A stretch of DNA of 51,711 nucleotides from Terriglobia bacterium (lineage in GTDB: Bacteria > Acidobacteriota > Vicinamibacteria > Vicinamibacterales > CAVVIG01): positions 1-51,711 of the forward strand of contig JAIQFX010000007.1 in the NCBI GenBank assembly GCA_020073005.1, given 5' to 3'. Both the position numbers and the translations under genes were made by a program. Shown here one piece after another: positions 2,900 to 51,711 of this stretch (positions within the stretch are counted from its first letter, which is position 1; every line of letters starts with the position of its first letter). Under the pieces are notes generated by a model. It was given only the letters and a program-made list of their open reading frames with translations. It searched no databases and was not told the DNA's origin.

Positions 2900-2937
2900 G
2901 CGTTCCTTCTTCCTTCTTCCTTCTTCTTTCTTCCCTC
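2900..2937. repeat. GA-rich microsatellite-like spacer with ribosome site
   Basis: Between padR and the permease the top strand is a run of TTCCTTC units (GAAGGAA on the coding strand). It supplies the ribosome-binding purines for the permease and resembles the other low-complexity repeats placed at gene borders in this window. Confidence 0.6.
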
Positions 2938-3285
2938 TCAGCGTGACTCGCGCAGGAGCGTCTGCATGATGGCCGCGGTGCGATCCCACTCCGCTTTTTC
3001 TGTCGCGAGCTGCCGGCGTCCCGCGGCGGTGATGGTGTAGAAGCGCGCCTTGCGGTTGCTGTCGGTGACGCCCCACTTCGCGCGGACGAAGCCGCGCTGC
3101 TCGAGGCGCATCAGCCCGGGATAGAGCGTGCCCATGTTGAGGCGGTGGGCGCCGCCGGAGACCTGCTCGAGGCGCGCGGCGATCGCGTAGCCGTGCAGCG
3201 GCCCGAGCGTGTCCAGCGTGTGCAGGACCATGAGGTCCAGCGTGCCCTGCAGGATGTCCGCTCTCGCCGTCTCTCTGTTAGACAT
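2938..3285 (-). CDS. PadR family transcriptional regulator
   Basis: A 115-residue winged-helix repressor of the short PadR type: DILQGTLDLMVLHTL, then LHGYAIAARLEQ, the wing NMGTLYPGLMRLEQRGFV and a C-terminal helix (RRQLATEKAEWDR) that would form the dimer. Full length for the family. It sits first in the operon with two ADOP permeases, the common acidobacterial arrangement, and so probably represses its own operon until an exported compound binds. The ATG at 3285 has no ribosome site and lies about four bases after the predicted transcription start, suggesting a leaderless or near-leaderless message. Confidence 0.93.
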   Translation of the reverse strand: MSNRETARADILQGTLDLMVLHTLDTLGPLHGYAIAARLEQVSGGAHRLNMGTLYPGLMRLEQRGFVRAKWGVTDSNRKARFYTITAAGRRQLATEKAEWDRTAAIMQTLLRESR

Positions 3286-3295
3286 ACCAATGGAG

Positions 3296-3324
3296 AGTCT
3301 AGCTGTTTCTATTAGAATGTCAAA
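3296..3324 (-). promoter_or_regulatory. sigma-70-type promoter of padR-ADOP operon
   Basis: On the minus strand TTGACA (3324-3319), a 17-base spacer and TAGACT (3301-3296) form a near-consensus promoter. The expected start point is close to 3289, just before the padR ATG at 3285. PadR autorepression over this site is likely but not shown. Confidence 0.7.
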
Positions 3325-3358
3325 TGAACAAGACGGCGCGGGCCCGGCCGGGGGCGCC

Positions 3359-9379: not shown

Positions 9380-10828
9380 ATGGACGCCGCATTTGTCTCG
9401 GAGCTCCGCCGCATCGTGGGCACCGAGCACGTGCTCGACGATGCGCTCGAGCTGCTGACGTACGAGTGCGACGCGCTGCCGCATCTGCGCGAATCGCCGG
9501 CGGCGGTCGTGCTGCCGGCCTCGGCTGCCGAAGTACAGGCGGTCGTTCGCCTCTGCGCGCGGCACGGCGTGCCGTTCGTCGCGCGCGGGCACGGCACCGG
9601 CCTCTCCGGCGGCGCGCTGCCCGTTCCCGGCGGTCTCGTCATCGCGCTCGCGCGGCTGAACCGCGTCCTCGACGTCGACATTCCGAATCAGCGCGTCACG
9701 GTCGAGCCGGGCGTGACGAATCTCGAGATCACGAAGCAGGTCGCGCCGTTCGGCTGCTACTACGCGCCCGATCCGTCGAGCCAGCAAGTCTGCTCCATCG
9801 GCGGCAACGTCGCGGAGAACTCGGGCGGCGCGCACTGCCTCAAGTACGGATTCACGACGCATCACGTGCTCGGCGTCGAGGCCGTGCTGCCGGACGGCGA
9901 GCTCATCCACATCGGCGGCACGCTCGTCGACACGCCGGGACCGGATCTGCTTGGGCTGCTGATTGGATCGGAAGGCACGCTCGCGATCGTCACGAAGATC
10001 ATCGTTCGGATCCTGCGGCGGCCTGAAGCCGTGCAGACGCTGCTGGCCGCCTTCGACACGATCGACGCGGGCGGCGCGGTCGTCTCGGACGTCATCGGCG
10101 CCGGGATCATTCCCGCCGCGATCGAGATGATGGACGCGCTCGCGATCAAGGCGGCCGAAGCGGCCGTCCATCCGAATTTTCCGCCGGCCGACACGGTGCT
10201 CATCGTCGAGCTCGACGGTCCGGCGTCCGAGGTCAAGGCGCTCTTCGGCCTCGTCCACGCCATCTGCGAGCGGCGCGGCGCGACGACGATCGAGGTCGCG
10301 CAGAACGACGAACAGCGCGCGCGCATCTGGCGCGGACGCAAGGCGGCGTTCGCCGCCATGGGCCGCGTCTCGCCCAACTACTACGTGCAGGACGGCGTCG
10401 TCCCGCGCACGCGGCTTCCGGAAGTGCTCAATCGCATTCGGCAGCTCGAAGCGCGATCCGGTCTGCGCATCGGCAACGTCTTTCACGCCGGCGACGGCAA
10501 CCTGCATCCGCTGATCTGTTACGACGAGCGCGTGCCTGGCGAGGCGGACAAAGCGGTCGACGTGGCGGCGGAGATTCTGTCGTATTGCATCGACGCCGGC
10601 GGATCGCTGACCGGCGAGCACGGGATCGGCGCCGACAAATCGCAGTACATGCCGACGATGTTCACGGCCGAGGATCTGGATCTGATGCAGCGCGTGCGAT
10701 GCGCGTTCGATCCGCACGGGCTATCGAATCCCGGCAAGGTCTTCCCGACGCCTCGTCTGTGCGGCGAAGTGCCGGGCCCGTATCGCCAGCATCCGGCCGA
10801 AGCCGCCGGCCTGGCCGAGCGGCTGTAG
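9380..10828 (+). CDS. glcD: Glycolate oxidase FAD-linked subunit
   Basis: A 482-residue FAD-linked oxidase of the GlcD/D-lactate dehydrogenase class, oxidising glycolate (or a similar 2-hydroxy acid) to glyoxylate. The FAD_binding_4 domain is in the first half (VLPASAAEVQAVVRLCARHG, ARGHGTGLSGGALP, SIGGNVAENSGGAHCLKYG), and the FAD_oxidase_C domain in the second (NVFHAGDGNLHPLICYD, TGEHGIGADKS, NPGKVFP). The ATG at 9380 starts right before the conserved fold; upstream codons come from spacer repeat. First gene of glcDEF, with only 25 bases to glcE, which are mostly repeat sequence. Confidence 0.93.
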   Translation: MDAAFVSELRRIVGTEHVLDDALELLTYECDALPHLRESPAAVVLPASAAEVQAVVRLCARHGVPFVARGHGTGLSGGALPVPGGLVIALARLNRVLDVDIPNQRVTVEPGVTNLEITKQVAPFGCYYAPDPSSQQVCSIGGNVAENSGGAHCLKYGFTTHHVLGVEAVLPDGELIHIGGTLVDTPGPDLLGLLIGSEGTLAIVTKIIVRILRRPEAVQTLLAAFDTIDAGGAVVSDVIGAGIIPAAIEMMDALAIKAAEAAVHPNFPPADTVLIVELDGPASEVKALFGLVHAICERRGATTIEVAQNDEQRARIWRGRKAAFAAMGRVSPNYYVQDGVVPRTRLPEVLNRIRQLEARSGLRIGNVFHAGDGNLHPLICYDERVPGEADKAVDVAAEILSYCIDAGGSLTGEHGIGADKSQYMPTMFTAEDLDLMQRVRCAFDPHGLSNPGKVFPTPRLCGEVPGPYRQHPAEAAGLAERL

Positions 10829-35372: not shown

Positions 35373-36581
35373 TCATGCTGCGGGGAACATCCGGCGCCGG
35401 AATACGGGCCCCGCGGCGAGACGGGCAATTCGCCGGTAGGCTTCGTAAGCCCAGAACCCAATCGTCCGCTCGGCAAGGAGCGCCGTTTCGTCCGGATTCA
35501 CGACGAGACTGACCTCGATGTTCGGCGCGGCGCCCACCGGGAGCCAGTGGCGCCGGCACGAGGCATAGACGTGTTCCATCACCGTCCGCATCTCGTGATA
35601 CGGCGGCGTCGGCCAGTCCTCCATGTCCGCGCCGACGGTCGGTCTGAAAATGCACACGGTGGGAAACGCGCCTATGCCGGTGATGCGATCGATGGCTTCG
35701 AGCGTCTTGGCGACCGGCTCGATTCCGGCGATGATCTCGCCCGACACCGCGCCGTACGGCATCCGCCGGACGCAGTGCGCCATGGCCGAAAAATACAGCG
35801 ACTGTCCGTGCACGCGCGCCTTCCCCGGGCAGATGCGCGCGAACCATTCCGGATCCAGCAGCTCGATGCAGAACGACAAGTGATCGACGCCAGCGGCGAT
35901 GAGCGCGTCGTAGCGCGTGAAGTCGCGCTCCGGCGCCAGCTGCACGCCGACCAGGAGCCCCACCTGATTCTTGATGGCTTTCACGTACGGCGTGATGAAC
36001 TCCAGGCCCTTCGATCCCTGGAAGCCGCCGTTGAGGTGGACGAACGTGATGCCCGACTCCTCCTTGGCCGCCCAGCACGTCTCGACGACGTCCTGGATCG
36101 TCTTGACGGAGGCTTCGTTCGGGCCGACGTTCTGCCCCGTCGTGCAGAACTTGCAATTGGCCGGCGGCGAGTAGTTCCAGAACGCGCAGGTCGGGTTCGC
36201 GTAGATCGCGAGATAGGTGCCCTGCAGGACGCCGATGCGATGCATCGGGATCTCACGCGACGTGAGGCGCGCATACCACGTCGGCTCGGGCGGCAGCCGC
36301 ACCGCGTAGCGCGTCGCGTCGCGGTCGTCGACGATTTCGTATCTGTCCGGCCCGCCGGACAGGCGGTACGGCGAGAGCGTCGCGAAGCGCTCGACGACGG
36401 GCGCGTTCACCCAGATTTCGCGCTTCAGCCGCGAACCGGCCGGAATCGCCAGTTCGAGCCCGGACCCGAGGCCCGCTCGCGTCCGCGAAACGCCTCGCGC
36501 GCCGGCCAGGGACACATCGTCCGGCACGCGCAGGCCGTGACAGAACAAATCAATTTCGAGCTCGCAGGCGTTCAGGGGCAT
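35373..36581 (-). CDS. Radical SAM protein with unusual cysteine spacing
   Basis: A 402-residue protein. An N-terminal domain (1-125) is followed by TCAFWNYSPPANCKFCTTG: cysteines 132, 143 and 146 give C-x10-C-x2-C instead of the classical C-x3-C-x2-C, but the TIM-barrel text that follows (FVHLNGGFQGSKGLEFITPY, DHLSFCIELLDPEWF, YGAVSGEIIAGIEPV) is typical of radical SAM enzymes. The reaction is unknown. ATG 36581 lies about nine bases after the predicted start point of a perfect sigma-54 promoter. Divergent from nifJ. Confidence 0.8.
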   Translation of the reverse strand: MPLNACELEIDLFCHGLRVPDDVSLAGARGVSRTRAGLGSGLELAIPAGSRLKREIWVNAPVVERFATLSPYRLSGGPDRYEIVDDRDATRYAVRLPPEPTWYARLTSREIPMHRIGVLQGTYLAIYANPTCAFWNYSPPANCKFCTTGQNVGPNEASVKTIQDVVETCWAAKEESGITFVHLNGGFQGSKGLEFITPYVKAIKNQVGLLVGVQLAPERDFTRYDALIAAGVDHLSFCIELLDPEWFARICPGKARVHGQSLYFSAMAHCVRRMPYGAVSGEIIAGIEPVAKTLEAIDRITGIGAFPTVCIFRPTVGADMEDWPTPPYHEMRTVMEHVYASCRRHWLPVGAAPNIEVSLVVNPDETALLAERTIGFWAYEAYRRIARLAAGPVFRRRMFPAA

Positions 36582-36600
36582 CGACGAAGCTCGATAGGCC

Positions 36601-36616
36601 GCAAGGCCAGTGCCAC
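36601..36616 (-). promoter_or_regulatory. Sigma-54 promoter of radical SAM gene
   Basis: Minus strand TGGCACTGGCCTTGC (36615-36601) matches TGGCAC-N5-TTGC exactly. Expected start about 36590, nine bases before the ATG. Confidence 0.75.
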
Positions 36617-36710
36617 GCCTTTTTCCCGGCATCTGTGAAATCTTGCCCATCCCGCTGCCGGATTCCCGGCAGGAAGCGGACTTTGGGCTGGTTTTCCGCC
36701 TGATCCCAGC

Positions 36711-36748
36711 CAGCACGCCGGTTGCAGTCCCAGCACGCGGGTTGCAGT
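36711..36748 (+). promoter_or_regulatory. Tandem sigma-54-like elements upstream of nifJ
   Basis: CAGCACGCCGGTTGCAGT (36711-36728) and CAGCACGCGGGTTGCAGT (36731-36748) are 20-base direct repeats. Each fits the -24/-12 pattern except that GG is AG. The second would start transcription about 20 bases before the nifJ ATG. They may be weak promoters or activator sites. Confidence 0.5.
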
Positions 36749-36775
36749 AACAGCCAGTCACGGAGGGATGACGGC

Positions 36776-39700
36776 ATGTCAGAGCGGTGGACCACTGTCG
36801 ACGGAAACGATGCTTGCGCGGACATCGCCTATCAACTGAGCGACGTGATCGCGATTTACCCCATCACCCCCTCGTCCGGGATGGCCGAGGCGGCGGATGC
36901 GTGGTCGGCCGCGAAACGTCCGAACCTGTGGGGCGCGGTCCCGACGGTGGTCGAGATGCAGAGCGAAGGCGGCGCCGCGGGCGCCGTCCACGGCGCGCTG
37001 CAGGGCGGCGGGCTGGCGACGACCTTCACGGCGAGCCAGGGCCTGCTGCTGATGATCCCGAACATGTTCAAGATCGCCGGCGAACTCACGCCCGCGGTGT
37101 TTCACGTGACGGCGCGCGCCGTCGCCACGCACGCGCTGTCGATCTTCGGCGACCACAGCGACGTCATGGCGGTCCGCTCGACCGGCTTCGCCATGCTCGC
37201 CTCGTCTTCAGTCCAGGACGCGCAGGACCTGGCGGCGATTGCGCACGCGGCGACGCTCGAGTCGCGCGTGCCGTTCCTGCATTTCTTCGACGGCTTCCGC
37301 ACGTCGCACGAGCTGGCGAAAATCGCCGTGCTCGAAGAGGCGGCGCTGCGCGAGCTGATCGACGGCTCGTGCGTCGATGCGCACCGCGCGCGCGCGCTGA
37401 CGCCGGATCGCCCCGTCGTCCGCGGCACGGCGCAGAACCCCGACGTCTTCTTCCAGAACCGCGAGGCCGTCAATCGCTTCTACGACGTCGCGCCGGGCGT
37501 CGTGCAGCACGTCATGGATCGATTCGCCGCGCTGACGGGACGCGCGCACCGGCTCTTCGAGTACTACGGCGCGCCTGACGCCGAGCGCGTGATCGTGATC
37601 ATGGGATCGGGCGCCGACGCCGTCCGCGCGACGATCGACGCGCTCGGGCCGGGGACGCGCACCGGCGTCGTCAACGTCAGGCTCTATCGCCCGTTCAGCG
37701 TGAAGGATTTCGCCGCCGCGCTGCCGCCCACCGTCCGCAAGATCGCCGTCCTCGACCGGACGAAGGAGCCCGGCGCGATCGGCGAGCCGCTGTATCAGGA
37801 CGTCGTGACCGCGCTGGCCGAGACGGGACGCGCGATCCCGACGATGATCGGCGGCCGCTACGGTCTCGGGTCGAAGGAATTCACGCCGGCGATGGTCAGG
37901 GCGGTTTTCGAAGAGCTCGATCGCCCCTCACCCAAACGTCACTTCACCGTCGGCATCGTCGACGACGTCACGGGGTTGTCGCTGGCGGTGGACGAGACGT
38001 TCCAGGTGGAGCCCGAAGGCTCGGTCCGCGCGCTGTTCTACGGCCTCGGCGCCGACGGCACCGTGGGGGCGAACAAGAACTCGATCAAGATCATCGGCGA
38101 GGAAACCGACAACTTCGCGCAGGGCTACTTCGTGTACGACTCGAAGAAGTCGGGCGCGTCGACGATCTCGCACCTCCGCTTCGGGCCGACGCCGGTGCGC
38201 GCGCCGTACCTGATCGCGCGGGCGTCGTTCATCGGCTGCCATCAGTACAGCTTCCTCGAACGCTACGACGTCCTCGAAGCGGCCGAAACCGGCGGCGTCT
38301 TCCTGCTGAACGCGCCGCACGGTCCCGAGGAGGTCTGGGACGAGCTGCCCTTCGAGATCCAGGATCGGATCGTCGAGAAGAAGCTGCGCTTTTACGTGAT
38401 CGATGCCTACGCCGTCGCGAAAGCGGCGGGCATGGGCACGCGCATCAACACGATCATGCAGACGTGCTTCTTCGCGATCTCGGGCATCCTCCCGCGTGAG
38501 GAAGCGATCGCGCACATCAAGCACGCGATCGAGAAGACCTACAAGAAACGCGGCCCGGCCGTCGTGCAGCGCAACTTCGAGGCGGTCGATGCGACGCTCG
38601 CCCACCTGCATCAGGTGGCCGTGCCAACGTCGCCGACCGCCTCGCGCCACGTTCCCGCGCTCGTCCCGGAGGACGCGCCGGATTTCGTCAAGCGCGTCAC
38701 CGCGGTCATGCTCGCCAACCAGGGCGATCGCCTGCCGGTCAGCGCGTTCCCGATCGACGGCACCTGGCAGACGGGCACGGCGAAATGGGAGAAGCGCAAC
38801 ATCGCGACCGAGATCCCGGTGTGGGATGCGCAGATCTGCATCCAGTGCAACAAGTGCGCGCTCGTCTGCCCGCACGCGGCGATTCGCGTGAAGCTCTACC
38901 CGTCCGACGCGCTCGACGGCGCGCCCGGCACGTTCAAGCACGTGCCGTTCAAGACCGCGGGGACGGGTGTCGCAGCCACGGACGGGCGACACCCGTCCCC
39001 GCACTCCCCGACATACACCGTCCAGGTGGCGCCCGAGGACTGCACGGGCTGCTCGCTGTGCGTGATGATGTGCCCGGTCAAGGACAAGTCGAATCCGCGG
39101 CACAAGGCGATCGACATGACGCCGCAGGCGCCGCTGCGCGACGCCGAGCGCGAGAACTATACGTTCTTCCTCGCGCTGCCGGAGGCCGACCGCGCGCAGA
39201 TCACGCTGGACGTGAAGAACACGCAGTTCCTCGAGCCGCTGTTCGAGTACTCGGGCGCGTGCGCCGGCTGCGGCGAGACGCCGTACATCAAGCTGATGAC
39301 GCAGCTGTTCGGCGATCGCGCCGTCATCGCGAACGCGACCGGCTGCTCGTCGATCTACGGCGGCAACCTGCCGACGACGCCCTACACCACCAATCGGGAC
39401 GGCCGCGGGCCGGCGTGGGCGAACTCGCTCTTCGAAGACAACGCCGAGTTCGGCCTCGGCATGCGCCTGTCGATCGATCAGCACGAAACGCGCGCGAAGG
39501 CCGTCCTGGCGCAGCTCGCGCCTGAACTGCCGGCCGATCTGGTCGACGCGATCCTCTCGTCCGATCAGACCAGCGAAGCGGGAATCAAGGCCCAGCGCGA
39601 CCGCGTGGCCGAAGTGAGACGACGCGTAGGGGCCGACCCACGTGTCGGCCCCTACGATCTCAACGTGCTGGACTACCTCGTCAAGAAGAGCGTGTGGATT

Positions 39701-40384
39701 GTCGGCGGCGACGGCTGGGCGTACGACATCGGCTACGGCGGACTCGATCACGTGCTCGCCAGCGGCGCCAACGTGAACATCCTCGTGCTCGACACCGAGG
39801 TCTACTCCAACACCGGCGGCCAGCAGTCGAAGTCGACGCCGACCGGCGCCGCGGCGAAGTTCGCCGTCGCCGGCAAGAGCGGCGTCAAGAAGGATCTCGG
39901 CCTGATGGCGATGGCCTACGGCCACGTCTACGTCGCGCAGGTGGCGTTCGGCGCCAAGGACGCGCAGACGCTGAAAGCGTTCCTCGAAGCCGAGGCGTAT
40001 CCGGGGCCCGCGCTCATCATCGCCTACAGCCACTGCATCGCGCACGGCTACGACATGGCTTTTGGCCTCGAGCACCAGCGCCTCGCCGCGGACTCGGGCT
40101 ACTGGCCGCTCTACCGCTTCGATCCGCGCCGCGCGGCGTCCGGCGAGCCGGCGCTCGTGATCGATTCGCTCGCGCCGAAGACGGACGTCTCGAAGCTCAT
40201 GGCGATCGAGACCAGGTTCCAGCTGACGGCGCAGCAGGACGAGATCCGGTATGCGGCGCTCGTCGAAACCGCGCGGCAGCAGATCGCCAGGCGCCTCGCC
40301 GCCTATCAGGAGCTCGCGCATCGCGCCGCGTCGAGCCCCGCGCGCGACGCGAACGACGTCCCGCACCCGGTCGGCGCGCACTGA
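36776..40384 (+). CDS. nifJ: Pyruvate:ferredoxin (flavodoxin) oxidoreductase
   Basis: A 1202-residue single-chain enzyme converting pyruvate and CoA to acetyl-CoA and CO2 with reduced ferredoxin. Domains in order: pyrimidine-binding domain (AIYPITPSSGMAEAADAW), domain II, gamma domain (GLGADGTVGANKNSIKIIGE), two 4Fe-4S ferredoxin motifs (C688 CIQCNKCALVCP; C756 CTGCSLCVMMCP) and the TPP domain with C829 CAGCGETPY and GDGWAYDIGYGGLDHVL. ATG 36776 has GGAGGG eight bases upstream. Two palindromic repeats sit in frame at about residues 728-742 and 950-960, adding extra residues between conserved blocks. It is divergent from a sigma-54 radical SAM gene and followed by a DHOD-like gene. Confidence 0.96.
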   Translation: MSERWTTVDGNDACADIAYQLSDVIAIYPITPSSGMAEAADAWSAAKRPNLWGAVPTVVEMQSEGGAAGAVHGALQGGGLATTFTASQGLLLMIPNMFKIAGELTPAVFHVTARAVATHALSIFGDHSDVMAVRSTGFAMLASSSVQDAQDLAAIAHAATLESRVPFLHFFDGFRTSHELAKIAVLEEAALRELIDGSCVDAHRARALTPDRPVVRGTAQNPDVFFQNREAVNRFYDVAPGVVQHVMDRFAALTGRAHRLFEYYGAPDAERVIVIMGSGADAVRATIDALGPGTRTGVVNVRLYRPFSVKDFAAALPPTVRKIAVLDRTKEPGAIGEPLYQDVVTALAETGRAIPTMIGGRYGLGSKEFTPAMVRAVFEELDRPSPKRHFTVGIVDDVTGLSLAVDETFQVEPEGSVRALFYGLGADGTVGANKNSIKIIGEETDNFAQGYFVYDSKKSGASTISHLRFGPTPVRAPYLIARASFIGCHQYSFLERYDVLEAAETGGVFLLNAPHGPEEVWDELPFEIQDRIVEKKLRFYVIDAYAVAKAAGMGTRINTIMQTCFFAISGILPREEAIAHIKHAIEKTYKKRGPAVVQRNFEAVDATLAHLHQVAVPTSPTASRHVPALVPEDAPDFVKRVTAVMLANQGDRLPVSAFPIDGTWQTGTAKWEKRNIATEIPVWDAQICIQCNKCALVCPHAAIRVKLYPSDALDGAPGTFKHVPFKTAGTGVAATDGRHPSPHSPTYTVQVAPEDCTGCSLCVMMCPVKDKSNPRHKAIDMTPQAPLRDAERENYTFFLALPEADRAQITLDVKNTQFLEPLFEYSGACAGCGETPYIKLMTQLFGDRAVIANATGCSSIYGGNLPTTPYTTNRDGRGPAWANSLFEDNAEFGLGMRLSIDQHETRAKAVLAQLAPELPADLVDAILSSDQTSEAGIKAQRDRVAEVRRRVGADPRVGPYDLNVLDYLVKKSVWIVGGDGWAYDIGYGGLDHVLASGANVNILVLDTEVYSNTGGQQSKSTPTGAAAKFAVAGKSGVKKDLGLMAMAYGHVYVAQVAFGAKDAQTLKAFLEAEAYPGPALIIAYSHCIAHGYDMAFGLEHQRLAADSGYWPLYRFDPRRAASGEPALVIDSLAPKTDVSKLMAIETRFQLTAQQDEIRYAALVETARQQIARRLAAYQELAHRAASSPARDANDVPHPVGAH
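38959..39000. repeat. 42-bp palindrome in frame inside nifJ
   Basis: GGGGACGGGTGTCGC (38959-38973) and GCGACACCCGTCCCC (38986-39000) are perfect 15-base arms with a 12-base loop. At 42 bases, exactly 14 codons, it adds residues (GTGVAATDGRHPSP) between KHVPFK and the second ferredoxin motif. The core is shared with the glcE element at 10828-10937. Confidence 0.9.
39625..39656. repeat. 32-bp palindrome in frame inside nifJ
   Basis: CGTAGGGGCCGAC (39625-39637) and GTCGGCCCCTACG (39644-39656) pair perfectly with loop CCACGT. It encodes RVGADPRVGPY in a linker before the KKSVWIVGGDGW block. Confidence 0.88.
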
Positions 40385-40402
40385 GAGCCGCTGAGAGCAA
40401 CG

Positions 40403-41419
40403 ATGAATCTGTCCACACGCTACCTGGGTCTCGACCTTCGCCACCCGTTCATGCCGGGCGCCTCGCCGCTCGTCGACGACATCGACGCGGTGCGCCGTCT
40501 CGAAGACGCCGGCGCGTCCGCCATCGTCATGCACTCGCTCTTCGAGGAGCAGATCGAGCACGAGCGCGAGGGTCTGGCCCATCACCTCGGGGTCCACGCG
40601 AACTCGTCGGCCGAAGCGGCCTCGTACTTCCCGGAGCCGGCGGCGTTCGCGCTCGGGCCCGATCGTTACCTGGAGCAGGTCGCGCGGATCAAAGCGCAGG
40701 TCGGCGTGCCCGTCATCGCCTCGCTCAACGGCACGACGCCCGAAGGCTGGCTCGGGTACGCGCGCCTCATCGAGCAGGCGGGCGCCGACGCGCTCGAGCT
40801 GAACTTCTATCACGTCGCCACCGATCTGCTCGAGGACGGCGCGGCCGTCGAGCGGCGCGTCATCGATATCGTCGCGGTCCTGAAGGAAACGATCGCGATT
40901 CCGCTGGCGGTCAAGCTCTCGCCGTTCTACTCGTCGCTGCCGAACCTGGCGTGGCGGCTCGATCAGCTCGGCGCCGACGGTCTCGTGCTCTTCAATCGCT
41001 TCTACCAGCCGGACATCGACCCCGAGCTGCTCGAGACCGTGCCCGCGCTGCGTCTGTCGACGTCCGCGGAGCTGCACCTGCGGCTGCGCGGGCTGGCGAT
41101 TCTCTCGGGACGTCTCCAGGCGTCGCTCGCGCTGAGCGGCGGCGTGCACGAGCCGGTCGACGCCGTGAAAGCGGTGATGGCCGGCGCGGACGCGGTGCAG
41201 ATCGTCTCGCTGCTGCTCCGCCGCGGCCCCGGGGCCCTCGCGCAGATCGTGCGCGGGTTCGAGGCGTGGGGCGAGGAGCACGAGTACGACTCGGTCTCCC
41301 AGATGCGGGGCAGCATGAGCCTCTCGCGCTGCCCCGATCCGGAGGCCTTCGAACGCGGCAACTACGTGCGGATTCTCCAGTCCTGGCGGCGGACCGAACA
41401 GGCCGCCGCCGGCCACTGA
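40403..41419 (+). CDS. Dihydroorotate dehydrogenase-like flavoprotein
   Basis: A 338-residue FMN TIM barrel: NLSTRYLGLDLRHPFMPGAS, PVIASLNGTTPEGWLGYARL, DALELNFYHVATD, LAVKLSPFYSSL and the phosphate-binding end LSGGVHEPVDAVKAVMAGAD. It differs from true PyrD (no Asn-Lys-Cys orotate triad seen) and belongs to the DHOD-like group commonly found beside nifJ, where it may link to ferredoxin or pyrimidine-like substrates. Starts 18 bases after nifJ, same operon. Confidence 0.85.
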   Translation: MNLSTRYLGLDLRHPFMPGASPLVDDIDAVRRLEDAGASAIVMHSLFEEQIEHEREGLAHHLGVHANSSAEAASYFPEPAAFALGPDRYLEQVARIKAQVGVPVIASLNGTTPEGWLGYARLIEQAGADALELNFYHVATDLLEDGAAVERRVIDIVAVLKETIAIPLAVKLSPFYSSLPNLAWRLDQLGADGLVLFNRFYQPDIDPELLETVPALRLSTSAELHLRLRGLAILSGRLQASLALSGGVHEPVDAVKAVMAGADAVQIVSLLLRRGPGALAQIVRGFEAWGEEHEYDSVSQMRGSMSLSRCPDPEAFERGNYVRILQSWRRTEQAAAGH

Positions 41420-41434
41420 TTGTGGGAGGTCAGT

Positions 41435-41932
41435 ATGATTAAGCTCAATCGCATTCTGGTCGCGACCGATTTCGGCGAGGCCTCCGAAGCGGCGCTCAAT
41501 TACGGCCGCGAGCTGGCCCGGATGTTCTCCGCGCAGCTCGACGTCCTGCACGTCGCCGACAACGTGCTGACCCGCGGGTTCGGCGCCGAAGGCTACGTCG
41601 CCAACTACCCAGAGCTGCAGCGCGACGTCGAGGAGGCGGCGCGGCGGAACCTGGACGCCCTGGTCAGCGACGAGGACCGGAAGATGCTGCGCGCGCGTCC
41701 TATCGTTATTACGTCGAATACGCCCGCGATCGCCATCGTCAGCTACGCGAAGGACGCCGGCGCCGGCCTGATCGTGATGGGCACGCACGGGCGCGGCACG
41801 ATGGCGCACCTGCTGATGGGCAGCGTGGCCGAGCGCGTCGTCCGGACGTCGCCGTGTCCGGTCCTGACCGTGCGGCATCCCGAACACGAGTTCGTGCTGC
41901 CGGATGCGCTCGTCGCCGTCGCCAAAGCCTGA
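41435..41932 (+). CDS. Universal stress protein
   Basis: A 165-residue UspA protein: KLNRILVATDFGEASEAAL at the start and the ATP loop IVMGTHGRGTMAHLLMGSVA with PCPVLTVRHP at the end. ATG 41435 has GGGAGG upstream. It is within the nifJ operon and lies two bases ahead of the acyl-CoA synthetase fusion. Confidence 0.93.
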   Translation: MIKLNRILVATDFGEASEAALNYGRELARMFSAQLDVLHVADNVLTRGFGAEGYVANYPELQRDVEEAARRNLDALVSDEDRKMLRARPIVITSNTPAIAIVSYAKDAGAGLIVMGTHGRGTMAHLLMGSVAERVVRTSPCPVLTVRHPEHEFVLPDALVAVAKA

Positions 41933-41933
41933 G

Positions 41934-44657
41934 ATGCAGATCGTCACGCCCGCGCTGCCCTCGGAAGACGATTCCGCTTCGCGGGCGGTGCTGCGCGACG
42001 GGACGGTCGCGACGCTGCGGCTGGCCCAGACGGGCGACCGCGAGATCCTCCGGCGCTTCTTCCACGATCTGTCGCCCGAATCGCGGCGCCGCCGCTTCCA
42101 CGGATACGGCGAGCCGACCGACGCGCTGCTCGACCGGCTGAGCGACTCGAGCGACCTCTCGCGCGCCGCGACGCTGCTCGTCCTGCGCGTCCGCGACGGC
42201 GAGTCGCGGCCGATCGCCGTCGGCTCGTTCGTCGCCATCGACGCGGTCGCCGCCGAGGCGGCGTTCGCCGTCGACGATCAGTTCCAGGGCCGGGGCCTGG
42301 GCACCATCCTCCTCGAGCGGCTCGCCGCGATCGCGGCGGCGCATGGCTTCCGGCGCTTCGACGCGATGACGCTCGCGGACAACAGCGCGATGCTCGAGGT
42401 GTTCCACGACTCCGGCTTCGAGATCCGGTCGAAGTCGGACAGCGGCGCCATCAACGTCCAGCTCTCGCTGAGCCCGACGATCGCGACGGTCGCGGCCGCC
42501 GAGCGGCGCGAGGCGCTCGCGACGGCCGCGTCGCTGCGGCCGATGCTCGAGCCCACCGCGGTCGCCGTCGTCGGCGCGTCGCGCGATCCGGGCAGCATCG
42601 GCCACCGCATCCTGCGCGCGCTCACCGGCGCGGGCTTCGCCGGCCCGATCTACCCCATCAATCCGCAGGCGGCCGAAATCGACGGCCATGCCTGCTATCC
42701 GTCGGTCACCGCCGCGCCCCGCGGCGTGGATCTCGCCATCATCGCGGTGCCCAAGCAGGTTGTCCTGCGTGTGGTCGACGAGTGCGCCGCCGCCGGCGTG
42801 AAATCGCTCGTCGTCATCACGGCGGGATTCGCCGAAGCGGGCGACGACGGCCGGGCGCTCCAGCACCAGCTGACAGACAAGGTGCGCGGCTACGGCCTGC
42901 GCATGGTCGGACCGAACTGCATGGGCCTGTTGAACGCGACGGCCGAGGTCCGGCTGAACGCGTCGTTCTCGCCGATTGTTCCGCCGAGCGGACGCGTCGC
43001 GTTTTCGTCGCAGAGCGGCGCGCTCGGCCTGGCGATCCTCGCGCTCGCGTCGGAGCGCGGCGTCGGCTTGTCGACCTTCGTCAGCGTCGGCAACAAGGCG
43101 GACGTCTCGAGCAACGATCTGCTGCAGTACTGGGAAGCCGACCCGCACACGTCGGTCATCCTGCTGTATCTCGAATCGTTCGGGAATCCGCGGCGGTTCG
43201 CGCGGCTGGCGAGACGCATCGCGCGGAAGAAACCGATCGTCGCCGTCAAGGCGGGCCGCACGCGCGCCGGCTCGCGCGCGGCCGGGAGCCACACGGCGGC
43301 GCTCGCCGCGAGCGACACGGCCGTCGACGCGCTGTTCCACCAGTCCGGCGTGATCCGCGCCGACACGATCGACGAGATGTTCGATCTCGCGTCGTGCCTC
43401 GAGGCGCAGCCGCTTCCGTCCGGCCGCCGCATCGCGATCGTGACGAACGCGGGCGGACCGGGCATTCTTGCCGTCGACGCGTGCGAGGCGGCGGGCCTGC
43501 AGGTGACGCCGTTCTCCCCCGCCACGCGCCAGCGGCTCGCCGCGTTCCTGCCGGCCGAAGCCAGCGTCGGGAATCCCGTCGACATGGTCGCGTCCGCTGG
43601 GCCGAACGAGTACCGCCGCGCGGTGGAAGCCGTGCTCACCGCCGAGGAGACCGACGCGCTCATCGTGATCTACACGCCGGTCGACGCCACCCGGGCCGGC
43701 GACACGCTGCACGCGATCCGCGAGGGTGTCGCGGCGGGGCGTCACGCGGGCGCCACGGGCAAGCCGATCCTGATGTGCGTGATGGCCGACGGCAACCGGC
43801 CGCAGCCGCTGATCGTGGAAGGCGAGCGCATTCCTGCGTACGCGTTCCCCGAGAACGCGGCGCGCGCGCTCGCGAAGGTGGCGACGCACGCCGAGTGGCG
43901 CGCGAAGCCGGCGGGCCTCCTGTGGAGCTTCGAGAACATCCGCGCCGAGGACGCGCGCACGATCTGCCGCACCGCGCTCGACGCGCGCGGCGAAGGGTGG
44001 CTCTCCTCGGACGAGACGCACGCGCTCCTCGGCGCCTTCGGTCTGCCGCTGGCGGCGGGCACGATGGCGCACTCGGCGGACGAAGCGGCCGCGCTGGCGC
44101 TCGTGCTGGGATTTCCCGTCGCCGTGAAGCTGGCGGCGCGCGGCCTGCCGCACAAGACCGACGCCGGCGTCGTCCGGCTGAACGTGACGAGCGATCAGTC
44201 GGTCCGCCGCGCGTTCACCGACATCATGACCCGCGCCCGGAAGCTGGTGACGGAGGATCAGATCGACGGCGTGCTGATCCAGTCGATGATCACCGGCGGC
44301 GTCGAGACGATGATCGGCGCGACCGAGGATCCGCTGTTCGGCCCGCTCGTCGCGTTCGGCCTCGGCGGCATCCACGTCGAGATCCTGGGCGACGTGCGGT
44401 TCCGCATCGCCCCGCTGACCGATCGCGACGCCGACGAGCTGCTGCACGAGATTCGCGGCCTGCCGCTGCTGCAGGGCTACCGCGGGCATCCGCCCGCGGA
44501 TCTGGACGCGCTGCGCGAGCTGCTGCTCCGCGTGTCGCGGCTCGCCGTCGAGGTGCCGGAGATCGTCGAGCTCGATCTGAATCCGGTGATGGCGATGTCG
44601 CCCGGGCACGGGTGCAGGATCGTGGATGCGCGAGTAAAGGTGCGGGCGCATCCGTGA
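41934..44657 (+). CDS. GNAT acetyltransferase / ADP-forming acyl-CoA synthetase fusion
   Basis: A 907-residue fusion. N-terminal GNAT domain (about 20-170; AFAVDDQFQGRGLGTILLER is the acetyl-CoA loop), CoA-binding domain (VAVVGASRDPGSIGHRIL), succinyl-CoA-ligase-like domain with the phosphohistidine region AAGSHTAALAASD (H453), and a C-terminal ATP-grasp domain (FPVAVKLAARGLPHKTDAGV). ADP-forming acetyl-CoA synthetases make ATP from acetyl-CoA; joined to GNAT they resemble the Pat protein-lysine acetyltransferases, in which the synthetase part may only sense metabolites. Downstream of nifJ, ATP formation from pyruvate-derived acetyl-CoA is plausible. Confidence 0.92.
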   Translation: MQIVTPALPSEDDSASRAVLRDGTVATLRLAQTGDREILRRFFHDLSPESRRRRFHGYGEPTDALLDRLSDSSDLSRAATLLVLRVRDGESRPIAVGSFVAIDAVAAEAAFAVDDQFQGRGLGTILLERLAAIAAAHGFRRFDAMTLADNSAMLEVFHDSGFEIRSKSDSGAINVQLSLSPTIATVAAAERREALATAASLRPMLEPTAVAVVGASRDPGSIGHRILRALTGAGFAGPIYPINPQAAEIDGHACYPSVTAAPRGVDLAIIAVPKQVVLRVVDECAAAGVKSLVVITAGFAEAGDDGRALQHQLTDKVRGYGLRMVGPNCMGLLNATAEVRLNASFSPIVPPSGRVAFSSQSGALGLAILALASERGVGLSTFVSVGNKADVSSNDLLQYWEADPHTSVILLYLESFGNPRRFARLARRIARKKPIVAVKAGRTRAGSRAAGSHTAALAASDTAVDALFHQSGVIRADTIDEMFDLASCLEAQPLPSGRRIAIVTNAGGPGILAVDACEAAGLQVTPFSPATRQRLAAFLPAEASVGNPVDMVASAGPNEYRRAVEAVLTAEETDALIVIYTPVDATRAGDTLHAIREGVAAGRHAGATGKPILMCVMADGNRPQPLIVEGERIPAYAFPENAARALAKVATHAEWRAKPAGLLWSFENIRAEDARTICRTALDARGEGWLSSDETHALLGAFGLPLAAGTMAHSADEAAALALVLGFPVAVKLAARGLPHKTDAGVVRLNVTSDQSVRRAFTDIMTRARKLVTEDQIDGVLIQSMITGGVETMIGATEDPLFGPLVAFGLGGIHVEILGDVRFRIAPLTDRDADELLHEIRGLPLLQGYRGHPPADLDALRELLLRVSRLAVEVPEIVELDLNPVMAMSPGHGCRIVDARVKVRAHP

Positions 44658-46533: not shown

Positions 46534-47250
46534 TCACACTCCCGCGCCCGTGGCGCACAGCGTTCTCGGCCGCTGCTCGTGCATGCGCAGCCAGCCGATC
46601 CAATCCGCGATGCCCACTCCGGACTTCGCCGACACCTTCAGCACCGCCGGCCGCGGCATCACGGCGTGCAGGTTCGCCTCGATCACGTCGAGACGCACCT
46701 CCGGCAGCGCCGGCAGCAGATCGATCTTCGTGATCAGCACGAGGTCCGCCTTGTGGAACATCGTCGGATACTTCAGCGGCTTGTCCTCGCCTTCCGTCAC
46801 CGACAGCGCGACGACGTTCGCGTCCTGGCCGAGGTCGTAGATGGCGGGACAGACGAGGTTGCCGACGTTCTCGATGAACAGATAGTCGAGCGTCCGCCAC
46901 GGCAGATGATGCAGGCCGCGGTGGACCATCTCGGCGTCGAGATGGCACGCGGTGCCGGTCGTGATGGACTCGGCCAGCATGCCGGCCGCGCGGATGCGCG
47001 CGGCGTCGTTGTCGGTCGCGAGATCGCCGGCGAGCACGCCGAGCTTCGCGCCGCCCAGGGCGCGCGCCGTCGCTTCGAGCACGGCCGTCTTGCCGGCGCC
47101 AGGCGAACCCATCAGGTTGATCGCGACGACGTTGTGATCGCGGAAGTGCTCGCGGTTGTGCCGCGCCGTGCGATCGTTGCCGGCGAGAATTCGCTCATGA
47201 ACGGCGAACGGGATCACGGTCGGATCGCCGCAGCCGCAGGATTCACACAT
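46534..47250 (-). CDS. hypB: Hydrogenase nickel incorporation GTPase HypB
   Basis: A 238-residue GTPase that delivers nickel to the [NiFe]-hydrogenase large subunit. N-terminal high-affinity metal motif C2-C5-C7 (MCESCGCGD), Walker A GSPGAGKT (48-55), the G-domain metal site A-C102-H103, and FIENVGNLVCPA (E127, C134). There is no His-rich storage tract. The ATG at 47250 shares a base with the hypA stop (TGATG). HypB normally docks to HypA, which here is missing its zinc domain. Confidence 0.96.
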   Translation of the reverse strand: MCESCGCGDPTVIPFAVHERILAGNDRTARHNREHFRDHNVVAINLMGSPGAGKTAVLEATARALGGAKLGVLAGDLATDNDAARIRAAGMLAESITTGTACHLDAEMVHRGLHHLPWRTLDYLFIENVGNLVCPAIYDLGQDANVVALSVTEGEDKPLKYPTMFHKADLVLITKIDLLPALPEVRLDVIEANLHAVMPRPAVLKVSAKSGVGIADWIGWLRMHEQRPRTLCATGAGV

Positions 47251-47498
47251 CACGGCACCTCCAGCTCGACTTGCTCGAGGGTGAGCTCGTCGCTCGACGC
47301 CGGCTCGATCTCGAGCGGCGCGTCCTCGCAGATGGTCTTGATACGGAACACGTCGTACGCCGTCCGGAACAGCTCGGGCTCGACGCCGGCCCTCGCGCCA
47401 ATCTTCACGCGCACGCGCCGGACGGCAATCGCGCCCCGCGCGTGAGCGACGCGCCGTATCTGGTCGAACATCGCCTGCACCAGGCTGTACTCGTGCAT
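47250..47498 (-). CDS. hypA: Hydrogenase nickel incorporation protein HypA, lacking its zinc-binding domain
   Basis: An 82-residue HypA. The nickel-binding start MHE (residues 1-3) and the fold EYSLVQAMFDQIRRVAHARG to AYDVFRIKTICEDAPLEIE are normal, and the C-terminal strand DELTLEQVELEVP is normal too. Between them, after IEPASS, about 35 residues are absent. In other HypA proteins this stretch holds two CxxC pairs that bind structural zinc. The join is in frame. Nickel binding could persist, but zinc-dependent shape and HypB docking should change. Starts beyond 47498 are repeat sequence. Confidence 0.88.
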   Translation of the reverse strand: MHEYSLVQAMFDQIRRVAHARGAIAVRRVRVKIGARAGVEPELFRTAYDVFRIKTICEDAPLEIEPASSDELTLEQVELEVP

Positions 47499-47502
47499 GC
47501 CG

Positions 47503-48417
47503 CTACCTATTGACCACGGAGGACACGGGGGACACGGAGGAAGAAACTTGTTTTGATTGCTTCCCCTCCGTGTCCTCCGTGTCCTCGGTGGTTCCATTTC
47601 CGAACTGCGCAGGCCGTTTCTGGAAGAACGCCTCGAGTCCTTCAGCGAATTCAGGTCCATCAGCGACGCGCGCCAATTCGTCCAGCTCCTGATCGAGATG
47701 CGCGTCCAGCCGATCGACGCCGGCCGCCTGATTCAGCAGCTCCTTCGCAATCGCGAACGCGCGCTTGGGTCCGGCCGCGAGGCGGTGCGCCATCTCGAGC
47801 GTCCGCCGATCGAAATCCTCCACCTCGAACACGGCCGTGATGAGCCCGTAGTCCAGCGCCTGCTCGGCGGACAGCCGCGGGTTCAGCAGCATGAGCTCCA
47901 TCGACCGGCGCAAGCCGATCAACTTCGGCAGCAGGAACGTCGAGCTCTCCGCGCCGGTGAGGCCCGTCTTCGAGTACGCCCACTCGAACGTCGCCCGCGT
48001 CGACGCGACGACGAGGTCGCACGACATCGCGATGCCGAAGCCGCCGGCCGCGGCGATGCCGTCCACGGCCGCGATGAACGGCTTGGGCGCGCGCCGGATT
48101 TCGGAAATCGTGCTGTGGATGTACTCGAGGATCTGCTTGAACGTCTCGCCGTAGCCCGCATGAGGCGCGTCGGGCGCCAGGTACCCGAGATCGCCCGCGT
48201 CGCCGCCGTCGCGAATGAACTTCAGATCGGCGCCGCTGCAGAACATGCCCGGCAGCCCGCGCAGCACGACGACGCGGACGTCGTCTTCGCGCGCGTACTG
48301 GAGGCCGGCGCGGCGGAAGTCCTGCGCGGTGCGCACGTCGAGCGAGTTGAAGCGCGCGGGCCGGTCGATGGTGATGAGCCCGATGCCGTCGACGCGTTCC
48401 ATCCGGATATGTGTCAT
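47503..48417 (-). CDS. Enoyl-CoA hydratase/isomerase family protein in hyp operon
   Basis: A 304-residue crotonase-fold protein. CoA/oxyanion segments MFCSGADLKF (59-67) and AAVDGIAAAGGFGIAM (116-131) are present. By eye alignment to rat enoyl-CoA hydratase, both catalytic glutamates are replaced (E144 by G128, E164 by Y148), and a new Glu appears in TGAESST (156). Placed between hypA and a formyltransferase gene, it may be the CoA-handling half of a HypX-like pathway making the CO ligand. The last 30 residues (TTEDTEDTEG onward) are encoded by a palindromic repeat. Ordinary beta-oxidation is the alternative. Confidence 0.8.
   Translation of the reverse strand: MTHIRMERVDGIGLITIDRPARFNSLDVRTAQDFRRAGLQYAREDDVRVVVLRGLPGMFCSGADLKFIRDGGDAGDLGYLAPDAPHAGYGETFKQILEYIHSTISEIRRAPKPFIAAVDGIAAAGGFGIAMSCDLVVASTRATFEWAYSKTGLTGAESSTFLLPKLIGLRRSMELMLLNPRLSAEQALDYGLITAVFEVEDFDRRTLEMAHRLAAGPKRAFAIAKELLNQAAGVDRLDAHLDQELDELARVADGPEFAEGLEAFFQKRPAQFGNGTTEDTEDTEGKQSKQVSSSVSPVSSVVNR
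47513..47592. repeat. CACGGAGGACACGGAGG palindromic element
   Basis: Arms 47513-47540 (ACCACGGAGGACACGGGGGA onward) and 47565-47592 (CCTCCGTGTCCTCCGTGTCC onward) are nearly perfect 28-base complements with a 24-base spacer. It encodes the C-terminal tail of the hydratase-like protein and ends just before hypA. A partial copy is at 9309-9335. Confidence 0.88.
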
Positions 48418-48421
48418 CGCG

Positions 48422-49267
48422 CTACATCTCCGCCACTGACGTGGCTCTCCCCACCTGCCCGACCCGCCCCACCCGCCCCACCGGACCTACTTCAGGCGCG
48501 AGCAGGAAGCCCTGGCGGTCGAGCAGCCACGGCGTGCTGTCGCGTGGATCCACGTCGGCGAGCTCGTCGAGATCGACCGCGCCGGTCGCGACCAGCTTCA
48601 GCGCGGCGGACAGCAGCGGTCCCGACGCGGTGTGCATCATCCACTGCTGATGCGCGAACGCGTACGCCTTGAACACGTCGCCGGCGTTCATCGACTGCAG
48701 CTCGGCGACGAGCGGCGACACGGGAAACGCCCACGACCGCACGATCGGCGTGCCGTCATCGGGCAGCGCGTCGACGAGGTGCACGGTCGCGCGCGTCTCG
48801 GCGCATCCCGCGGCGAGCGCATCGCGCACGGCGCGGACGCCGGGGAATCGCGGTCCTCCCGTGCCGGCGCGCAGCGACAGATCGCTGTAGTGCAGGTTGA
48901 GGATCCGGTTCTTGCACGCGTCGAGCAGCGGCGCGGTGATGAGATACAGATAGCCGTCCAGCAGGATCACATCGGGCAGGTACGGCGTGAGGAGGTGCCG
49001 CGTCTCGGCGTCGTACGCGCGCCGTGTCTCGAAATCGCGGTAGAGGGACGCGCCGCGCGAGTCGTAGAACTCGCGGATCGGATGCGTCAGCGTGGGAATG
49101 CCGCGACCGACGTCTTCCCCGAACGCCGTCTCCGTCGTCAGGACGCAGACGATCTCGAACGACGTGCCGCGATCCGGGCAGCGCGTGAGCAGGTGGACCA
49201 GCCCCGGCGCGCGATGCGAGCAGAGGACGGCGACCCGGATCGGAAGGCGGCAGTCGTTGATCAGCAT
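48422..49267 (-). CDS. Formyltransferase-like protein in hyp operon
   Basis: A 281-residue protein of the PurN/formyl-transferase fold. The catalytic trio is visible: N124 and H126 in RILNLHYSDLS and D166 in ATVHLVDALPDDG, with PRFPGVRAVRDALAAG between. It should use 10-formyl-tetrahydrofolate. In the middle of a hyp operon and beside a crotonase-fold gene, it is a candidate for the formyl-transfer step of CO-ligand synthesis, as in HypX, where both domains are on one chain. The ATG overlaps the hypE stop. Residues after about 261 (PVGRVGRVGQVGR) come from a G-rich repeat. Confidence 0.8.
   Translation of the reverse strand: MLINDCRLPIRVAVLCSHRAPGLVHLLTRCPDRGTSFEIVCVLTTETAFGEDVGRGIPTLTHPIREFYDSRGASLYRDFETRRAYDAETRHLLTPYLPDVILLDGYLYLITAPLLDACKNRILNLHYSDLSLRAGTGGPRFPGVRAVRDALAAGCAETRATVHLVDALPDDGTPIVRSWAFPVSPLVAELQSMNAGDVFKAYAFAHQQWMMHTASGPLLSAALKLVATGAVDLDELADVDPRDSTPWLLDRQGFLLAPEVGPVGRVGRVGQVGRATSVAEM
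48449..48483 (-). repeat. G-rich tandem repeat, possible G-quadruplex, coding the formyltransferase tail
   Basis: The coding strand has repeated GTGGGGCGG units, with at least four G-runs of three or more within 35 bases. It gives the PVGRVGRVGQVG tail and might fold as a quadruplex in the transcript just before the hydratase start. Confidence 0.65.
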
Positions 49268-50304
49268 ATGCGTGGCAGCAGTTCGCCCTCCGGCTCCGCC
49301 ACGAGCCGGCGGCCAAACCCGGTGTCCAGAATCACCATCCCGGGACGGTCTTCCGTGCAGACACCGATCAGGGCGGCATCGACGCCGAGCGGATGCGCGC
49401 GAAGCGCCTCGAGCACGCGCCCCACGGCGGCCGCGCGCACGCCGAGCAGCGCCTTCCCTTCGTTCGCGACCAGCAGCGGATCGATGCCGACGAGCTCCGA
49501 GACGCCGCGCACGGCGTCGCGGACCGGCAGCGCCGCCTCGTCGAGCGTCACGCCGACGCCGCTCTTCGACGCCATCTCGTGCAGCGCGCTGGCCGCGCCG
49601 CCGCGCGTCGGATCCTTCATGGCGGTGATCGCATCGGGAGCGGCCGTCAGCACCGCGCGGATGAGTCCGTTGATCGGCGCGACGTCCGATCGCAGATCGA
49701 GGTCGAGCGCGAGGCCGTGACGCGTCGCCATGACCGCCATCCCGTGATCGCCGAGCGTGCCGGTCACGATGATCCGGTCGCCGGGCCGCAGTCCGCCGTC
49801 GCGGACGAGATGCGGCGCGAGCGCCATGCCGGCGGTGTTGATGACGATGCCGTCGAGCTCGCCCTTGCCCATCACCTTGGTGTCGCCGCAGATCACCGTC
49901 GCGCCGGCTTCTTCACACGCGACGCGCATCGACGCGAGGATGCGTTCGAGATCGGCGCGCGGAAATCCTTCTTCGAGAATCACGGCGCAGGTGAGGCCGA
50001 GGATGTCGGGCGCGCCCATCATCGCGAGATCGTTGACGGTGCCGGCGATCGCCAGGCGTCCGATGTCGCCGCCGGGAAAGAACGGCGGCTGGATCACGTG
50101 CGAGTCGGTCGTCATCACGAGCCAGCGATCGCCGAGCCTGACCGCGCCGCCGTCGTCCATGGCCGCCACGCCGACCAGTCCGGCGGGCACTTCGGGATCG
50201 GTTTCGAAGGCGTGCAGGAACGCCTCTTCGATGAGGCGCCGCATCGCGCGGCCGCCCGCGCCGTGCTTGAGCATGATGCGGTCGTCGGCGACTAGATGGG
50301 ACAT
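49261..50304 (-). CDS. hypE: Hydrogenase maturation protein HypE
   Basis: A 347-residue AIR-synthetase-fold enzyme that dehydrates the C-terminal thiocarboxamide to a thiocyanate, giving the CN ligands of the [NiFe] centre. Seen: LKHGAGGRAMRRLIEEAF, TTDSHVIQPPFFPGGDIG, GTVNDLAMMGA, MKDPTRGGAASALHEMA, and the invariant C-terminal PRIC whose Cys is the modified residue. ATG 50304 overlaps the hypD end by 13 bases. Confidence 0.97.
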   Translation of the reverse strand: MSHLVADDRIMLKHGAGGRAMRRLIEEAFLHAFETDPEVPAGLVGVAAMDDGGAVRLGDRWLVMTTDSHVIQPPFFPGGDIGRLAIAGTVNDLAMMGAPDILGLTCAVILEEGFPRADLERILASMRVACEEAGATVICGDTKVMGKGELDGIVINTAGMALAPHLVRDGGLRPGDRIIVTGTLGDHGMAVMATRHGLALDLDLRSDVAPINGLIRAVLTAAPDAITAMKDPTRGGAASALHEMASKSGVGVTLDEAALPVRDAVRGVSELVGIDPLLVANEGKALLGVRAAAVGRVLEALRAHPLGVDAALIGVCTEDRPGMVILDTGFGRRLVAEPEGELLPRIC

Positions 50305-51419: not shown

Positions 51420-51441
51420 TTCTACCTTCTGCCTTCTGGCT
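51419..51441. repeat. CTTCTGCCTTCTGG-type repeat at the hypC end
   Basis: CTTCTACCTTCTGCCTTCTG and neighbouring bases form an imperfect tandem. On the minus strand it encodes KPEGRR and the TAG stop of hypC. Confidence 0.7.
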
Positions 51442-51711
51442 TTGCGCTTCCGCCGATTTCTCCGCGGACATCGGCGGCCATCAGATCGTTCCGATCCGCT
51501 TCCTTCAGCAGCTGCTCGTACATCTCGAGCGTCAGCTTCACGTCCTCGGGCGGAATGCGGCGGATGGCGAAGCCGACGTGATTCAGGACGTAGTCGCCCG
51601 TGGCGACCGGCTCGTCGACGAGATCGAGCCGCACGCGTCGCCGCACGCCCCAGAAATCAACGACCGCTGAAAGGTCATCGACCTCGACCACGAGTCCCGG
51701 TACGCCTAAGC
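51422..51711 (-). CDS. hypC: Hydrogenase maturation chaperone HypC, start cut by window edge
   Basis: The frame is open to the window edge and reads LGVPGLVVEVDD right from 51709; the two bases before it are GC, fitting the TGC of the essential Cys2 in MCLGVPG. So only the Met and part of Cys2 are missing. HypC carries iron with its ligands from HypD to the hydrogenase. The fold continues FWGVRRRVRLDLVDEPVATG and YVLNHVGFAIRRI. The last residues (SAKPEGRR) are from a repeat and are not family-like. hypF is not in the window and may lie just beyond. Confidence 0.93.
   Translation of the reverse strand, partial: LGVPGLVVEVDDLSAVVDFWGVRRRVRLDLVDEPVATGDYVLNHVGFAIRRIPPEDVKLTLEMYEQLLKEADRNDLMAADVRGEIGGSAKPEGRR

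Follow-up and report, generated by a model that had tools for sequence, protein, structure and literature searches.

The locus analysed here raises the question of how a [NiFe]-hydrogenase may obtain its carbon monoxide ligand when no HypX is at hand. HypX produces the carbon monoxide that hydrogenases carry, and HypX (HoxX) of C. necator and A. aeolicus is an N10-formyl-tetrahydrofolate decarbonylase. In the window, by which we mean the whole 51,711-nt stretch of DNA that was analysed, a preliminary description had noted a formyltransferase gene and a crotonase-fold gene between hypE and hypA and had put the two forward as candidates for CO-ligand synthesis in place of HypX. Having compared the locus with relatives and with the rest of its source genome (G000; 5.86 Mb in 179 contigs), we lean towards the reading that the two proteins divide the chemistry of HypX between them and in this way provide the [NiFe]-hydrogenase with its CO ligand, an activity that is inferred.

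Open reading frames and comparison with relatives give the minus-strand order hypC-hypD-hypE-FT-ECH-hypA-hypB at the end of the window, in which FT stands for the formyltransferase and ECH for the crotonase. The hypC gene (51422–51711), cut by the window end, was recognised by similarity to C. necator HypC (in L040), and hypD (P0004; 50292–51419) matches PF01924 at 412.9 bits. Both hypE (49261–50304) and hypB (46534–47253) have matching orthologues in the operons of relatives, one of the hypB orthologues also matching C. necator HypB. The hypD gene overlaps hypE, hypE overlaps the start of FT and hypA (47250–47498) overlaps hypB, whilst 4 nt separate FT from ECH and ECH from hypA. FT and ECH are therefore tightly packed with hypCDE and hypAB, and because of these overlaps and short gaps we read the genes from hypC to hypB as one operon. 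The same strand of the contig carries, further upstream, hypF and genes for a [NiFe]-hydrogenase whose electron chain is Hyb-like (an iron-sulfur protein and an NrfD-type membrane subunit). In C. necator, Bradyrhizobium and R. leguminosarum it is hypX that follows hypE, and the pair resembles HypX in being placed after hypE at most loci. A separate observation concerns hypA. When aligned with C. necator HypA and 11 relatives, the HypA of the window, like that of G001, lacks the whole segment with the zinc-binding (zinc-type) cysteine motif, the reading frame being intact; the ten other relatives carry this segment wholly or in part.

FT (P0001, 281 aa; 48422–49267, minus strand) is formyltransferase-like, and its PF00551 match scores 66.4 bits (cut-off 26.1). 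Among NCBIfam models PurN (TIGR00639) fits best, with 63.5 bits, far below the cut-off of 150.1, and the fmt model gives 20.4 bits. The N/H/D trio described earlier is indeed intact, with N124 and H126 (encoded, together with D129, within 48881–48898) and D170 (48758–48760), which holds the position of the formyltransferase catalytic Asp. In an alignment of 18 FTs, His126 is present in 18/18, Asn124 in 16/18 and an Asp at the D170 position in 15/18; identity to P0001 among the relatives aligned is 38–76%. Directly after the catalytic His126, FT carries an insert of 8 residues that is absent from all 31 other formyltransferases compared, and inside this insert Asp129, three residues beyond the His, is invariant (18/18). 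The structure model of FT (pLDDT 76.5) was best matched in the PDB by PurN entries (Z 17–21), with HypX coming last of the best 50 matches (Z 14.1). With an HMM of the HypX N-domain, FTs scored no more than 7.5 bits (3/18 gave no match), PurN-type proteins no more than 13 and eight Fmt/FDH-like proteins 33–87. Since the FT scores resemble those of PurN-type proteins, this half of the pair is not HypX's: FT is PurN-related and not HypX-N-like, as the preliminary description had judged. PurN (GAR transformylase) is its nearest likeness in both fold and sequence. Unlike PurN, FT falls below the equivalog cut-off, carries the insert with its invariant Asp and is found with hyp genes at all 18 loci.

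What FT does share with HypX is a formyltransferase half with a conserved His and Asp. In PMC6802093 the usual Ser of the formyl-transfer triad is described as replaced by Asp in HypX. The HypX triad consists of His, Asp80 and Asp109, for which FT has the ever-present His126 and, in most members, the Asp at the D170 position. That D129 takes the role of the triad residue Asp80 is only a guess, their equivalence not having been shown. The source genome also has separate PurN-type (contig 106) and Fmt-type genes. The labels PurN-type, Fmt-type and PaaG-like, as used for genes of relatives, were assigned from sequence pattern or resemblance. The fourth PF00551 gene of the genome was considered as a possible HypX and rejected; its neighbours resemble, by eye, a nucleotide-sugar dehydrogenase and an aminotransferase, and for this reason it is probably a sugar N-formyltransferase. 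Weaker FT-like matches also occur in relatives, for example in G016, G018 and G024. The C-terminal tails of both ECH (TTEDTEDTEG..., 47503–47600) and FT (GPVGRVGRVGQVG..., 48424–48490) resemble read-through of short repeats, and similar tails recur in G001.

The second protein, ECH (P0002, 304 aa; 47503–48417, minus strand), matches PF00378 at 158.3 bits (cut-off 27) and reaches the cut-off of no NCBIfam model among the best 25 of 75. In rat enoyl-CoA hydratase a pair of Glu residues is catalytic. ECH has Gly and Tyr at the two columns where the genome's other crotonases carry Glu; held against enoyl-CoA hydratase it meets the crotonase fold and does not meet the two catalytic Glu, which bears out the earlier remark that both usual glutamates are lacking. 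Its structure model is poor (pLDDT 62, built from seven rows, the active-site stretch 147–179 lying below 50). The model is crotonase-like in the PDB comparison (Z about 22), and the absence of HypX from its best 50 matches excludes nothing.

Two other residues tie ECH to HypX. Tyr148 (codon 47974–47976) aligns with HypX Tyr439 of C. necator and Tyr416 of A. aeolicus, and Glu157 (47947–47949) aligns with Glu449 and Glu426, respectively. According to PMC6802093, Tyr416 and Glu426 of A. aeolicus HypX are proposed to act in formyl-CoA decarbonylation, and mutating the corresponding residues in C. necator gives a HypX-minus phenotype. We observed both residues in 20/20 intact ECHs and in 9/9 HypX proteins, and in none of 39 other crotonases together (Tyr alone in 7/39, Glu in 0/39); one subfamily of the latter has an Asp near the Glu position. 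The 39 comprise 38 distinct proteins and one duplicate, and do not include L070, the genome's tenth PF00378 match. The 9-residue spacing between Tyr and Glu in ECH is found exactly in three HypX proteins (two actinobacterial and one from Mycetohabitans). This residue pair bears on a reading in which FT and ECH serve some other step of hydrogenase maturation, with, for instance, a small molecule or Hyp protein as the target that FT formylates and another acyl-CoA as the substrate of ECH, so that the likeness to HypX would amount to CoA binding and shared ancestry only. An FT that is PurN-like, has acquired a new loop and gives no HypX-N signal would suit such a role, as would the FTs found without ECH beside hypF and hypC (L077) or hypF and hypB (G098), where no HypD was found. 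However, it leaves unexplained why Tyr and Glu stand at the HypX positions in every intact ECH and together in no other crotonase, and we hold it to be quite improbable.

Split HypX chemistry, the reading we prefer, also draws on the kinship that we observed between ECH and the HypX C-domain. When the source genome was queried with C. necator HypX, ECH was the only match at E<=1e-3, despite ten PF00378 matches. No complete HypX was found by this query and a HypX hidden elsewhere in the genome was therefore rejected; a complete hypX at another locus was the very finding that would have undone the original proposal. With an HMM of the HypX C-domain, 19 ECHs scored 59–77 bits, whilst the best of the 39 other crotonases scored 63, outscoring 2/19 ECHs, and the next 50. 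After the motif stretch was blanked, the ECHs scored 26–45 bits and 13/19 remained above the best other crotonase (36.6); the motif thus contributes part of the HypX-like signal. In a tree built from nine HypX C-domains, 19 ECHs and 31 other crotonases, HypX and ECH were separated from the others with support of 100/99, and the split persisted when the motif was blanked in the 50 non-HypX rows only. Eight long or odd background rows had been left out before this tree was built, and most background crotonases had been picked by closeness to ECH or from the same genome. The AU test rejected placing HypX with any of three other crotonase groups (p 0.001, 0.0001 and 0.002). HypX attaches among the ECHs in the tree, and whether the ECHs form a single clade is undecided (p 0.21).

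The nearest non-hyp crotonases among the 60 relatives are the PaaG-like L159 and L160 (39 and 35% identity), which have the Tyr column in common with ECH and, unlike it, are without the Glu. One of the three groupings that the AU test rejected joined HypX to L159 and L160 together with two plasmid crotonases (p 0.001). Moreover, there is no hyp gene within roughly 3–4 kb at any of the 26 background crotonase loci from the phylum. To judge from these sequence comparisons, membership of the HypX C-domain lineage is met by ECH, with the caveat that the HypX branch is long (4.4 with nine HypX rows, and 6.2 in an earlier tree with three).

The likeness to HypX is therefore on the crotonase side, which has the Tyr/Glu pair, is without the usual two Glu and groups with the HypX C-domain. 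Unlike HypX, the pair is made of two separate proteins, and its formyltransferase is PurN-like with a loop insert rather than Fmt/FDH-like. The test of a single chain with Fmt/FDH-like and crotonase domains is not met, given two ORFs and an FT without HypX-N signal, and by membership the pair is not HypX. It most likely works like HypX, both reactions being inferred. The preliminary description had left the choice between an independent and a split solution. A split finds support in the HypX-C-like ECH with its Tyr/Glu; what does not stand, as far as sequence relationships tell, is a simple fission of HypX, the FT half being PurN-related. In our reading the pair is a counterpart of HypX made of two proteins: the CO-releasing half is the same, the formyl-transfer half non-orthologous.

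Linkage to hyp genes was observed at every locus, 18/18 for FT and 21/21 for ECH. Each FT has a hyp gene as its neighbour, except that of L047 at a contig end, which adjoins the hyp-linked ECH; the ECH loci, which include a fragment in G002 and a contig-end copy in G023, all lie within hyp clusters. Close FTs are present in 9 of 60 relatives (E<1e-69; next class E>1e-14) and close ECHs in 11 (E<1e-118; next 1e-41), plus the G002 fragment. A sample of 396 genomes from the phylum Acidobacteriota contains FT (E<=1e-20) in 12, ECH (E<=1e-60) in 14 and both in 11. A wider genome scan returned eight FT loci, from seven Acidobacteria MAGs and one Gemmatimonadetes MAG; six of these are contigs already among the relatives, L077 and L078 being additional. 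As far as contigs reach, the usual order is hypF-hypC-hypD-hypE-FT-ECH-hypA-hypB, with the variant hypD-FT-ECH-hypE in G070, G096 and G108. Other genera of the phylum show the arrangement too, and the Gemmatimonadetes MAG has hypE-FT-ECH within a hyp operon; on these grounds chance adjacency to hyp genes was rejected. The other outcome that would have counted against the proposal, a pair widespread without hydrogenase genes, did not materialise among the loci found. In plasmid records, none of the 29 that matched FT covered 80% of the query and none of the 985 that matched ECH reached 60% identity, and with no close match to either, spread on plasmids was rejected. These large surveys are samples in which few candidates were scored per genome, and single misses are possible.

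The same linkage speaks against the pair being ordinary acyl-CoA and purine enzymes that merely happen to be located in a hyp operon. Both folds are common, and the best family models are PurN and ordinary enoyl-CoA enzymes. Against this, the genome has its PurN-type and Fmt-type genes elsewhere together with nine other crotonase matches, FT is far below the PurN cut-off and the association with hyp genes is without exception. We disfavour this explanation and find it scarcely credible.

For HypX chemistry divided between FT and ECH, the company of HypD is also informative. HypD (E<=1e-40) is present in 184/396 genomes of the phylum sample, and HypD of the window type (E<=1e-131, 61–100% identical, the others being at most 46% among the matches listed) in 17. 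All 14 ECH genomes fall within these 17, with 0/167 among genomes with other HypD and 0/212 among those without HypD. Full-length HypX (E<=1e-20) occurs in 2/396 genomes (G064 and G205), which have another HypD type and are without FT or ECH. Because the genomes are related, these counts are not independent events.

The pair is not always complete. ECH operons without FT are found in G014, G030, G314 and G322, all four with the Tyr/Glu motif intact, and FT presence in G023 cannot be judged because the contig starts at ECH. Three hyp clusters with window-type HypD (G031, G042 and G272) have neither gene, and the pair is therefore not indispensable. Two FTs are without both N and D, one in G086, where FT lies in a second locus beside hypC, and one in G098 (hypF-FT-hypB). 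In G002 (L042, about 2865–4159) ECH is cut after about 66 residues, hypA is missing and FT has Glu for the catalytic Asp, the truncation being either a deletion or a misassembly. L077 (9956–10768) has the order HoxM-hypF-hypC-FT; HypD and a P0002-close ECH were not found in its genome or in that of L093/G098 (9683–10387), and these ECH-less FTs are either relics or put to a different use. In light of the FT-less operons, the clusters with neither gene and the FTs without catalytic residues, ECH is the firmer part. The ECH-only operons, the clusters lacking both and L077 favour ECH as the core, with FT a usual but not universal partner.

A stronger version would have ECH alone as the CO-making core, taking formyl-CoA or a formyl thioester from any source in the cell, with FT as an optional aid, lost in several lineages. 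The motif-intact ECHs without FT fit this, as do the loss of FT catalytic residues in G086 and G098 and the better conservation of ECH, which is 66–91% identical to P0002 in the alignment of relatives, compared with FT (38–76%). It sits less well with FT and ECH occurring together in 11/14 ECH genomes of the phylum sample and with FT being hyp-linked at all of its loci. We consider it unlikely, whilst granting it some weight.

Under the division of HypX chemistry that we prefer, FT would move a formyl group from N10-formyl-tetrahydrofolate onto a thiol, most likely that of CoA, yielding formyl-CoA. ECH would then bind formyl-CoA in its crotonase pocket and convert it to CO and CoA via Tyr148 and Glu157, and the CO would be delivered to the HypCD scaffold. 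Inference alone underlies the two reactions, the choice of thiol and any complex of FT, ECH and HypCD. We further entertain, as a tentative and rather doubtful possibility, that the free-standing hyp crotonase is a formyl-CoA decarbonylase forming an independent module of [NiFe]-cofactor synthesis, that HypX arose from or beside it via fusion with an Fmt-like protein, and that in Acidobacteriota its partner is PurN-like. Were this true, operons without FT would draw formyl-CoA from another source, and CO-ligand synthesis would be modular and, for hydrogenases without the O2-tolerance signature, could proceed in the absence of HypX. A relative of the HypX decarbonylase domain that stands on its own, accompanied by a different formyltransferase or by none, is a concrete and testable gene and suggests that CO synthesis is a mix-and-match module. 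Moreover, a split pair would allow the two half-reactions of HypX to be studied apart. A formyltransferase/crotonase pair in hyp operons was not found in the literature by title or opening abstract, a search that left subscription papers mostly uncovered.

Lastly, we note several features of the hydrogenases and of neighbouring genes. Unlike C. necator HoxK, the hydrogenase small subunits associated with the pair are without its two extra cysteines, which are absent in 7/7 small subunits aligned (six beside pair-bearing operons and that of the pair-less G272). The proximal-cluster motif reads DCAGN, with Asn for HoxK Cys63, in the small subunits of L046, L090 and L094, and ECTGC in the other four. 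A shortened gene for a HypX-like formyltransferase follows hypE in Bradyrhizobium sp. 187 (L204, 4001–4411), and on that plasmid the HypX match covers only 42% of the query. Near the hyp operon of the window lies a weak radical-SAM protein (35373–36761, minus strand), relatives of which adjoin the FT of L077 (67% identity) and lie close to the displaced FT in G086 (49%), and are absent from the ten other FT loci scanned. Also near this operon, the plus strand (36776–44657) encodes a pyruvate:ferredoxin oxidoreductase, a universal stress protein, a DHO_dh-family protein and a GNAT/acyl-CoA ligase. Between hypF and the gene for the hydrogenase large subunit, outside the window, is a large gene (G000:C11:54235-57114) that by eye is permease-like.
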